Assembly: GCA_032158295.1 (NCBI GenBank)
Contig: CM063243.1
Span: 17,273,635-17,337,634 of the forward strand
DNA length: 64,000 nucleotides
DNA from: Pycnopodia helianthoides
Lineage: Eukaryota; Echinodermata; Asteroidea; Forcipulatida; Asteriidae
Direction: 5' to 3'
The notes below the pieces were generated by a model, which saw only the letters and a list, made by a program, of their open reading frames with translations, did not search any database and had not been told where the DNA came from. This document shows positions 16,925 to 64,000 of the stretch, in pieces (the first letter of the stretch is position 1; the number at the start of each line of letters is the position of its first letter). The translations under genes and the position numbers were made by a program.

Positions 16925-17030
16925 AATAAGCGAGTTCGGCATTTCGCGCGCGCTATGCATGCTGGGTAAAGGTCAAAGGTAATTCGGGATAAACATCGCC
17001 GTTGTCACACGCGCTTGTGTGTTACGCAGT
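16925..17030 (+). repeat. Left terminal inverted repeat of the SAP-gene element
   Basis: It pairs with 19,312-19,417. It is GC- and CpG-rich (cgcgcgcgctatgcatgc) and lies directly upstream of the SAP gene, so it may contain that gene's promoter. Confidence 0.75.
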
Positions 17031-17106
17031 GTGTTAGCATCTTGCAGACGCGAATAGGCTCACACGTCTTGCTTTTCTTTAATTTTTGGTCAATTATTTT
17101 TTAGAG

Positions 17107-17360
17107 TATGAGTGATCAAAATTACGAGAATTTGAGTTCGGATGACTTTCATGCGATGGAAAGTTTAAGCTTTGAAGAACTTTTTAGCAGACAGGGGACT
17201 GAAAAGAACGGGAAGAAAGAAAGAATTGAAGGTCCCGGTGCTGCCGTCTGCAACTGAGGAAAAGAGGCAGCATGCTCAGCAATATCGTGAGCTGCTAAAG
17301 TATGGTGACATTATGCTGCCAGATCCTGTCCAAGACCTCACAGATGGATGGCTAGGCTAG
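17107..17360 (+). pseudogene. Frameshifted N-terminus of a SAP-like (DNA-binding) mobile-element protein
   Basis: From ATG at 17107 the frame reads MSDQNYENLSSDDFHAMESL then SFEEL. The protein-like sequence then continues in another frame (from 17172): LKNFLADRGLKRTGRKKEL, a good SAP-motif pattern. Next come PVLPSATEEKRQHAQQYREL and LPDPVQDLTDGWLG, then TAG. Beyond the stop, other frames still look protein-like (ESKGILQLLPTMQLY, then YIELANHLNNLAVRAG), so the gene decayed by several small changes. SAP motifs bind AT-rich DNA. Invertebrate genomes hold many multicopy proteins with a SAP-like start, an 'EEKR' stretch and a 'GW' region, as I recall them. The function of this one is unknown. Confidence 0.6.
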
Positions 17361-18838
17361 GGGAGTCAAAGGGGATTCTTCAGTTGCTACCTACCATGCA
17401 GTTATATTGAACTGGCCAACCATCTAAACAATCTAGCTGTTCGAGCGGGTGAACCGGCTGGAGGTTCTGGGAGCACGACCACGAACAGAAATTTTATTTG
17501 TAACAGGGTGCTAATTAAAAGATATTAAGTTGGAAATACAAACACCCAAGAAGGGTAATTAATTTTAACATAAACACTAGGTCTTTCACATGAACATATC
17601 AGGATATTTAATTTATTTGGTACTGCCAGAGAGAGGTTCAAATTGCTATAGGACCTACACTTTTACCTAAACACTTTTAAAATGTCCTGTTTTATGTACA
17701 TAAAAAATAAACGTGTTAATGGATGCACTTGCTCTTTTATTGCACATGACATAATTTGAAAAAGTGTGACGGAGGTTGAAACTGTCTACACATACATAAC
17801 GGGGTTTTAAATTGATATATTTCAGGTAGTAGGCCTACGTGTTAAAAAAAATTGTTTATTTTTCCTGACTTTGTTAAGTATTATGGTTAATACTGTCTAT
17901 AGATAAATACTGACATGGGATTGGCAAAAATATTAACAATTTTTCATTGAAATCCATGATGTTTAGTGAATGTACATGTTTACAACAAAGTTATCACAAG
18001 GAAAAAATCTTAAGAAAATAATGCACACATTTGAAGGCCGTTACAGAAAATGATTTCCTTTAATGTGTATGTTAAATATAATTATATAAATAGAAATGTA
18101 AAAATATAGTACAATATAAATAACTTTTTGTACACACTAGAGCGGCCATAAGGAAGCATAAGATATAATCCTTAATTTGGTAAGAGGTAATGTGCATGTT
18201 GTATGCAATAAGTAGCAATTAGATGCATTTTGTGCCTACTTGTTTTGCTGCAGATTGAACTGTATGTTTTTATAACTGTTTTGTTCTTTTATGAATAAAT
18301 TGCACATGCCATACTTTGGCAAAATCTTACAGAAATTGAAACTTTAACATTTACTTTTCTCAGGATGACTTATGTTACAAGTGGGGGTGACAGATTAGTG
18401 ATTGCTGCATAAATGATGAAGATTTGATCAATCAGGGGGAGTAGTGTGATGGGCAAAATGTTTGATAATTTGGAAGCATTTGAGTCTTCCTATAGCTCAT
18501 TCAACATGGTCCAGACTTGCGAGGAGATGATTTAAATCTCCTTGTAACTTTAGTTGATGTCACCTTTTTTTACCCTGGAAAAGTATGAAGGGTGGGCTAC
18601 AGGTACACCGTCCTCTTCCGAAGTTGCAACCATGTTCGTTGCAAAACAAAGCTTTCCACTAAGCTGAAACGTGCTATTTACACAATTCAATGCAGCACAA
18701 ATCCTCATTGGCTAAAAAAATAAATAAACCAAAAGTTCTATCAAAATAACTTGCCAAATATTTAGTAAAAACCAGCCCACAACTAACATTATTAATAAGT
18801 TCTGGATTCAATAGCAAGACAATACTTTAACTTTTCAT

Positions 18839-19150
18839 TTAAAAAATTGCTTTCAAGAAAACAAAAATGGAGAGAATTTTATCATCGAGCAGAAAAATAA
18901 ACACAAAAAGGTGTCCAATGACTTCCAATTCTACTTCAGTCACAAACAAATATAGTTTCAAAGAGTTGACATTCAAATTTCCTTCCTTTTTTAAAGTCAA
19001 AATATCAATAAAATCGTCTTTGATTTCTGGAGTCGATTTACTTCTCCGTGTTTTTAGTGGTGTACGACAACGAACGGGGCCCCTGCCGGGCCGCGGCGGC
19101 CCCCGGTGCCTAGTGTTGACCAAAGGGGTCCCGAATACTCGCTTTTCTCA
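18839..19150 (-). other. Unassigned minus-strand open stretch near the right end of the TIR element
   Basis: The frame reads VNTRHRGPPRPGRGPVRCR, then TPLKTRRSKSTPEIKDDFI and DILTLKKEG before turning AT-rich. It has no ATG and meets an in-frame TGA upstream. The basic, Pro-rich part is much more GC-rich than its surroundings. It may be an exon of a second element gene or a chance frame. I recognise no family. Confidence 0.2.
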
Positions 19151-19311
19151 GCTACATTTGAGCAAAATTTCGTTGTTTAATGCCTCACAAAATACAATTT
19201 AGTTGGAAAACCCTGCTTAAAGCATGTCAAGGAATATATATATATATATTAACAACTAACTTATTTTCCGAGAAAGCCTGCCATCTATCCAGGTGCGCCA
19301 TAAGAACAACG

Positions 19312-19417
19312 TGTGTTTGTGCACTGAGCTAGTACGCGTGTGCCAATGTTTATCCCGAATGAACTCTCACCCAGTAAATCTCGGACATGCGCAGTCGGAA
19401 TGCCGAACTCGCTTATT
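19312..19417 (-). repeat. Right terminal inverted repeat of the SAP-gene element
   Basis: Reverse complement of the left repeat: a perfect 19-base terminus, a perfect 15-base inner block, and a diverged middle. Confidence 0.75.
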
Positions 19418-44349: not shown

Positions 44350-45336
44350 TCAGGCAGTCAGGTCGAAACCTGAACTAAAATCCGAAGCTGAAGCGGTAGT
44401 TTCGAAAAAAAAGGGCCCAGAAGAGGTGACTAGGAATAAGGATGCACCTGCCTTTTTTGCCTTCTGTGAAGTATTAAACTCACTGATACATGTCAGTTGA
44501 TAACATTGTATTTATGAGGGATATAACAGTGTTCTACAACTTTCAAAGTTAAAGGTTAGCGCTTAGCAGGACTCCTAAATCGTGGCAGGTGCCACAGAAA
44601 GCTTGATGGTGCACTATGCTTGTTGTACATTGCATGTAGGAGAACACTGATATTAAATACAGTAACATGTGCATTTACAAGGAGTGTGCAATGTGCACTT
44701 GTGCTTGTATACATACGTGAAGACCACATTTTCATGCATATTTGCACATATATGCATGTGAATTACATACACTTGTGTACCGAGATTGATCTGATCTTGG
44801 TTAATCATTCATCGTTGTGGTTATTGAAGGGCAATACACAAACTGATAATCAGAGCTGTACATGTTGAACATGTTGACTTGGGGGTTCAACAATGGTGAC
44901 CCCATTCGTCTTGGACATGTTGGATTACTGGAAGTTGCATTCAATCGCTTCCAACAAATATTATTGGCTTATAATTCGTCCAACATCACCTGTCAGTCTT
45001 CACCCTGCACAGAAGGCTGTGCTTTCAATGTTGACTTCAAACGATGGATGCAGCTGAATCTAACAATTATTACTTTTTTGTCTACTTCTTTTTCAAATGT
45101 TTTCAAGAGCTAGTAATACTTGTCAATCCAGAGATTTTATTCTGCTATAAATTCTACAGTTTTGGGATGATGGGATTTACATGGCATTAAATACAATTTC
45201 ACCGGTCACTCTCTGAAAAAAATACATCTAGGACTTTGAATCTTTAAGAAATATCAAGTCATAAACCTCGAGGGAAATGGACTGGGTAAATGTTTAGTTA
45301 ATTTTGGGGTGAACAAAGAACAATTGACTAGAGCTG

Positions 45337-45398
45337 GACTTGAACCTGCTACCTCCAGATTACATGCCGGAACTCTACCAACTGAGCTATCTAGCCCT
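45337..45398 (-). mobile_element. tRNA-like SINE head, minus strand
   Basis: The minus strand reads gggctagatagctcagttgg then tagagttccggcatgtaatc and aggttcaagtcc, with clear A and B boxes. The anticodon loop carries one extra base and the acceptor stem does not close, so it is a SINE or tRNA pseudogene. Confidence 0.6.
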
Positions 45399-62258: not shown

Positions 62259-62304
62259 TTATTAGAACACACAGGACCCCTTTTCAAGTTTTCAGTCTTC
62301 CAAT

Positions 62305-62720
62305 TTTTGGTTTTCCGTGGTGAGTTAAATTTTCAGTCAATATTTCCAAAAGCCATAATTGATTGACTAGATTTTTGTTTTCCTTGGTGAGTTAATTTTG
62401 CAGTCAATAATTCCAAAAGCCATGAATTGATTGACTAGATTTTTGTTTTCCTTGGTGAGTTAATTTTGCAGTCAATAATTCCAAAAGCCATGAATTGATT
62501 GACTAGATTTTTGTTTTCCTTGGTGAGTTAATTTTGCAGTCAATAATTCCAAAAGCCATGAATTGATTGACTAGATTTTTGTTTTCCTTGGTGAGTTCAC
62601 TTTGCAGTCAATAATTTCAAAAGCCATGAATTAGACTAGATTTTTTGTTTTTGCATGGTGAGTTAATTTTGCAGTCAATAATTCCAAAGGCCACGAATTC
62701 ATTGACTTAATTTCTGTTAG
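62305..62720. repeat. 68-base minisatellite, six copies
   Basis: The unit is ttgactagatttttgttttc / cttggtgagttaattttgca / gtcaataattccaaaagcca / tgaattga. 'tggtga' recurs at 62318, 62385, 62453, 62521, 62589 and 62656, spacing 67-68. The inner four copies are almost identical and the outer ones diverged. Confidence 0.95.
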
Positions 62721-64000
62721 TAAGGCTGTGCAGTGGCTACAGCAAGGTTGCTGAAAAGTCATCTCCTTCAGCGTTTTGTAGCTGCAGCCAACGGCAATAG
62801 CTGTAGCCAAAGTGGCTAAATTCAGTCAAGCGGCATTATAGACCAAGCATTTATGACTCTTTAACTACAATAATCCCAGGCACTGGTTTGCCCAACCCTG
62901 TATTTAGTCTACTAGTGTTTATTGAGTCTATTTGAACAGTGCATATAAAGTATTATGTACATGTACTTCCTACCATACAAACACCCACTGCTTTTTTGAT
63001 AAATGTTATATGCCAGAGAGAACAATTCTGTTTGACCTTCTGCCAGCGATTGACGTCATACTCAACAGTATCATTCATGTATGTGAAACCGTATGCCTGC
63101 ATCCTTTTGGGGCCCAGCTTTTGTGGCTTTTGTCAAAAAGCGCATTCTTTCTTCACAGAGAGCGATTTCTGTATAGTGTTGTTACTTTTTTTGTGAATGT
63201 ACATTTGTACGCCTCAGCTGCATGGTACAGAGTTTTTGACTGCGATTTCAACTTTTGTTACATGTGCATTATGCAGACACTTCCCACTTTTTGCAGTACA
63301 TTTTTCTGTAGGCTTCCTGTGGTACAGATTCACACCCGAATTTTAGCCACAACCCCCCCCCCCTTCGTTTTGTAAGAAACTCTCAAATGTCCATTACAAA
63401 TATCACTTGACCTGACTCAAGTACCAACCTAGTCAAGGTTAGAGCTGGAATTTGAGGGGATACAGGCCTGTTTACAAATTTAAGGCCTTTGGAAGATAGC
63501 AGCTTTTGAATCAAAACATCACTCGATGGACAAATCAAGGTCACATTTGGTCCAAGACCTCAAACACTTTTAAATGGTATATTTCTTGGCTTTTCACTTA
63601 AAATGTTTGGGGGAAAGGAAACTACCATTATTAATGCAAAGGTGCAATATGGTTTCCCGATTGGGTATTGATCCTTTGGAACGTTAAGAGAAGTTGGGTA
63701 CCAGTCAGAATTATTGTCTATCCCATTCCAAATTTTGAGAGGCTCAACTATGATCCCCCCTGTCCTAAAGTTCCTATGCATATCATTGGTCAGTAACTGA
63801 ACTCTTTGTGTGAATGTTTAATCTATGAAATACTATTAACAAACAAACCTTGAACCCTGAAGTTAACAATCTAGAGGATTGATTACACATAGATCTCCAT
63901 ATTGTATTTAATTCCCGTTTATGCGTGTAAAGTTACCAAGTACCAACTCCTCTACTTAGCAAGCAACCGATGTAGCTGCACCACGTCCACTAAACCATGT
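62721..64000. other. Gene-free stretch to the window edge
   Basis: 62,724-62,850 (ggctgtgcagtggctacagc ... gtagccaaagtggct) is a weak relative of the 8897 MITE. An open frame of about 147 codons at 62,932-63,375 ends in a C run and has no conserved motif, so I do not call it a gene. Confidence 0.35.

Follow-up and report, generated by a model that had tools for sequence, protein, structure and literature searches.

Three groups of DNA transposons, ISL2EU, PIF/Harbinger and Spy, are placed in the PHIS superfamily in the consulted sections of Han et al. 2015 (PMC4482050). According to those sections, ISL2EU elements duplicate AT at the target A|AT|T, carry terminal inverted repeats (TIRs) of 6-259 bp and have tips that usually start with GG, a tendency rather than a rule. 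Autonomous ISL2EU copies encode a transposase with DDE, HTH and THAP domains and a second gene with a YqaJ domain, and the function of this accessory gene is described there as unknown. PIF/Harbinger elements duplicate TWA, and Spy elements target AAATTT with no duplication (PMC4482050). Both THAP and YqaJ are among the scallop gene families listed in the consulted part of PMC10225492. The word "SAP" has 0 occurrences in the consulted parts of PMC4482050 and PMC9179366, and we found no literature joining the SAP domain with transposons and YqaJ, or with DNA transposons and terminal inverted repeats.

Here we analyze a window of 64,000 nucleotides of Pycnopodia helianthoides DNA. It contains a copy of a young cut-and-paste transposon that is multicopy in the genome and has no working genes of its own.

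Results

Extent and ends of the element

The features of the element in window coordinates are as follows.

16926..16927, no strand: AT target duplication, left copy, preceded by A (flank comparison and empty-site paralogues)
16928..19414, plus strand: whole element, 2,487 bp, of the 2.5-kb subfamily (tips, length and the genome's converging tip pairs)
16928..16943, plus strand: left tip AAGCGAGTTCGGCATT, a perfect inverted repeat of 19399-19414
16982..16996, plus strand: inner inverted block ATTCGGGATAAACAT, left (repeat comparison and end alignment)
17108..17257, plus strand: ATG frame of the window copy, 49 codons plus stop (open reading frame, no Pfam match)
17147, plus strand: 1-bp insertion private to the window copy (from alignment; the exact base is alignment-dependent within a short run)
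17148..17360, plus strand: SAP-exon remnant; SAP match at 17148-17228 with a TAA inside, the frame reopening at 17169 up to the stop at 17358-17360
19346..19360, minus strand: inner inverted block, right (repeat comparison and end alignment)
19399..19414, minus strand: right tip, a perfect inverted repeat of the left tip
19415..19416, no strand: AT target duplication, right copy, followed by T (flank comparison and empty-site paralogues)

The outer arms (16925-16953 and 19389-19417) are perfectly matched over their first 19 bases, and the inner arms (16971-16996 and 19346-19371) contain 15 perfect bases. When the two 150-bp ends are aligned locally, the score is 49; the highest among 2,000 dinucleotide-preserving shuffles is 27. 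Both inverted blocks given in the preliminary description are thus present. Its 19-base tip needs trimming: 16 of these bases are the element, whereas the outer A-AT and AT-T belong to the target site and its duplication, which sets the element's bounds at 16928-19414.

The six frames of 17001-19402 have Pfam matches to SAP and, below cut-off, to DUF2299, and to nothing else; no DDE, HTH or THAP transposase domain and no YqaJ occurs in the element's six frames. An imperfect direct repeat of 45 bp (78%) lies within the element at 17739-17783 and 18299-18343, 560 bp apart. Across the window, the sole Rfam match at gathering threshold lies outside the element and is tRNA-like (RF00005, 40.9 bits; 45325-45396, minus strand). 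A tandem array with a period of ~68 bp, reported as six overlapping copies, is found at 62274-62748.

A young family of paired ends

We searched the host genome (479 Mb, 742 contigs) for further copies. The left 110 bp have at least 40 scored matches at 98-100% identity, and exact matches to the 16-base tip number 88 (43 forward, 45 reverse), compared to 0 for a backward control. Of these exact tips, 84 form 42 converging pairs of 0.92-2.49 kb, in three length classes: 924-940 bp (7 pairs), 2,286-2,412 bp (13) and 2,475-2,488 bp (22). The ends therefore behave as a genome-wide pair and are not scattered independently, and the earlier claim of a TIR transposon is borne out.

Besides the window copy, 39 copies were compared, 20 with 9.5-9.7 kb of sequence each and 19 with 1 kb; all 39 align with the window element starting at its base 1. 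Mean pairwise substitution is 0.20% among 11 copies of 2.5 kb, 0.56% among 7 copies of the 2.4-kb subfamily and 1.2% between subfamilies. The low divergence of the 11 copies indicates a recent spread of the family. An older copy, L108, is 91-95% alike across its three main pieces.

No autonomous copy with exact tips was found in the genome, the longest exact-tip pair being 2,488 bp. The four unpaired tips belong to L058, in which the right tip is altered, and to L095, L096 and L097, each of which was considered and rejected as an autonomous parent. L095 (lone tip at C22:8093290) is a copy of the short subfamily that is interrupted by ~3.2 kb of other DNA, L096 (C3:13796069) is a copy without its first 240 bp, and L097 (C231:29581) runs off the contig end. 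In L095 (C22:8087300-8093400), the break falls at element position ~76-84 with a 9-bp overlap resembling a target duplication, and the insert has frames of 106-157 codons. Among viral contigs, 47 stretches have one exact tip match each and zero pairs, which we take as chance, and no encoded relative was found there.

Insertion signature

The left flank reads AAT in 21/21 copies, the window copy included. On the right, AT follows in 20/20 copies (L058 was dropped for its altered right tip), the base after it being T in 16 of these and A in the remaining 4. Empty sites were examined through paralogous sequences at two insertions: L061, which lies within a satellite, and L073, which lies within a dispersed repeat. 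All seven L073 paralogues aligned over the junction read AAATTGG. Among eight junction-spanning L061 paralogues, the three closest by identity read CTAATTCG, and the five more diverged ones have AAAC or AATC at the site, not AATT. Together, flanks and empty-site paralogues define the target as A|AT|T (AATT) with AT duplicated, so the comparison of filled and empty sites proposed earlier yields an AT duplication, with AATT in the closest paralogous empty sites at both insertions. The satellite at L061 (C12:15.82 Mb) consists of ~21-bp units on both sides of the copy.

A broken SAP segment in every pair

The preliminary description placed a SAP protein shortly inside the left end. Its ATG at 17108 exists, but the 49-aa frame that it opens has no Pfam match at E <= 1; the SAP motif sits in a different frame and scores below the gathering cut-off. 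The 1-bp insertion near 17147 is absent from 20/20 other aligned copies. Genome-wide, 95 SAP matches were listed, of which 46 have one internal TAA and 49 have none. The TAA-bearing matches fall one each in the 42 window-family pairs (42/46), and the others lie in L058, L095, L096 and L108; among the matches listed, no stop-free SAP match lies inside any of the 42 pairs. The segment was therefore broken already when the family spread. A working SAP gene in the element has to be rejected, given the in-frame TAA in all 42 copies and the additional insertion in the window copy. SAP remnants nevertheless lie between paired ends in 42/42 pairs, and neither outcome that had been named as speaking against the description, ends occurring independently across the genome or SAP relatives never lying between them, was seen.

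In a 5.8-billion-protein set, the SAP remnant, length matched to long relatives, gave 11 word-sharing candidates with none at E <= 10, and its 86-aa read-through gave no candidate.

A sister family with some stop-free SAP matches

L106 is flanked by AT at both ends; its tips AAGCCGATTCACTATT can be aligned to the window element's left end, and it carries a SAP exon ~200 bp inside its left tip. This sister tip occurs 56 times in the genome (control, 0), with 48 occurrences in 24 converging pairs, 19 of them of 1,050-1,075 bp. Of the 49 stop-free SAP matches listed, 14 lie at most 400 bp from a sister tip, 12 of these inside a complete pair. The remaining 12 of the 24 pairs have no listed stop-free SAP match, and in one of them, L110, the SAP frame is shifted. 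The sister family thus resembles the window family in the place of its SAP exon and in its related tips, and differs in length and in having a stop-free SAP (12/24 pairs). The earlier hunch that a DNA transposon may be the origin of multicopy SAP sequences is borne out for these two families.

L110, a 4.09-kb sister pair, was rejected as a parent: over the first 1.5 kb examined, it matches a standard copy for 626 bp and then continues in other DNA, most likely a nested insertion. At C23:130453-135467, three sister copies follow one another head to tail in a stretch of 5 kb.

SAP and YqaJ lie together in the genome

There are 37 listed matches to YqaJ (PF09588) in the genome. Five of the 49 listed stop-free SAP matches precede a YqaJ match on the same strand by at most 6 kb, compared to an expected 0.011. 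The scores at some of these five places are identical or almost so, which may mean that one element was copied, and the five are not counted as independent. At L105 (C3:13371300-13380300), SAP and YqaJ lie on the plus strand, and the minus strand carries DDE_Tnp_4 (E 1.6e-44), HTH_Tnp_4 (E 1.4e-11) and a partial THAP match of 18.5 bits, under its cut-off of 23.9. This gene set equals the published ISL2EU set plus a SAP in front. No TIR was found around it in the 10.5 kb searched, so that L105 is a candidate single element whose genes are known there from co-location.

The window remnant aligns with the SAP exons of L106 (44% of 36 residues) and L105 (36% of 39), and with L107 over 74 residues (27%), including the stretch past SAP; the similarity is short, and the E values of 2.6e-6 to 4.3e-4 refer to ~19 kb of sequence only. 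Seven YqaJ stretches of 3.0-3.5 kb gave no convincing alignment and contain no SAP; in one of them, L098 (C1:31901500), a SAP lies ~5 kb upstream, beyond the fetched stretch. From these sequence comparisons, the SAP remnant looks like the front end of an ISL2EU-type nuclease gene of the order SAP ... YqaJ. A stretch of ~0.8 Mb at C15:9.3-10.13 Mb holds five of the 37 listed YqaJ matches, four of them with an in-frame stop.

Discussion

The window element has a cut-and-paste structure, an AT duplication, a recent history of multiplication and no remaining coding capacity. We put the probability at about 0.8 that it is a non-autonomous, internally deleted ISL2EU-type (PHIS / Harbinger-like) transposon that keeps its TIRs and a pseudogenised first exon of a SAP ... 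YqaJ gene. Since the element encodes no transposase, its group rests on the target site and the gene fragment; ISL2EU is indicated both by the duplication of AT at A|AT|T and by the link between SAP and YqaJ, which makes this assignment likely.

Such an element would have arisen by internal deletion of a full-length element with these tips, the position of the deletion having left the accessory nuclease gene with its first coding exon, now a pseudogene. The SAP exon probably survived owing to its position near the left end, where deletions that spare subterminal DNA also spare SAP. A transposase made elsewhere in the genome, presumably of ISL2EU type, would bind the ends and excise the element, which would then insert into AATT and duplicate AT; the inner inverted blocks may be recognised too, as binding sites.

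The element could instead belong to a different or undescribed AT-duplicating group and have captured its SAP fragment from an unrelated host gene. The tip that starts with AA rather than the usual GG would suit such an origin, as would an element without transposase in a genome where no autonomous exact-tip copy was found. We nonetheless consider it unlikely: the target matches A|AT|T exactly, SAP adjoins YqaJ at five places in the genome, and the sister family, whose SAP lies equally far from a related tip, is easier to explain by a gene of the ancestral transposon than by a captured one. A fortuitous match between inverted ends in unrelated DNA has a vanishingly small probability and is refuted by the 42 converging pairs, in keeping with the alignment score of 49 against a shuffle maximum of 27.

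Selection on the SAP segment offers another way to account for its presence in all 42 pairs, long and short: it may have been kept as useful, either because it encodes a small peptide that binds DNA or because it serves, as subterminal sequence, for binding or as a promoter. The stop-free match in 12/24 sister pairs would agree with this. A peptide is contradicted by the stop in each of the 42 window-family matches, and in half of the sister pairs no stop-free match is listed, with the frame of L110 shifted; a role as DNA would be compatible with these stops, but overall we regard retention for a function as unlikely. Returning to the ISL2EU-type reading, a bolder extension that we hold to be quite unlikely is that SAP is a standard front module of the ISL2EU nuclease, that the SAP exon and left end were repeatedly kept as a unit by non-autonomous ISL2EU families, and that the sister family's stop-free SAP-only frame could yield a small peptide competing with the full nuclease at the ends.

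If the SAP-module reading is true, it would explain some of the predicted multicopy proteins that start with SAP in invertebrates. For annotators, multicopy SAP fragments can be transposon debris. Our data further suggest that a SAP DNA-binding domain can stand at the start of the ISL2EU accessory gene, which would provide a handle on the gene's function, and a young family with formerly unassigned ends is now placed in a described group through its insertion signature.

Compared to ISL2EU, the element differs in a tip that starts with AA (AAGCG) instead of GG, in lacking a transposase, as expected of a non-autonomous copy, in lacking YqaJ, and in its SAP domain, which is unmentioned in the consulted sections of Han et al. 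2015. PIF/Harbinger and Spy are alike in their PHIS membership and AT-rich targets, but neither the TWA duplication of the former nor the AAATTT target without duplication of the latter fits the element. Its likeness is to ISL2EU, with which it shares the AT duplication in A|AT|T and terminal inverted repeats that fit the published range of 6-259 bp.
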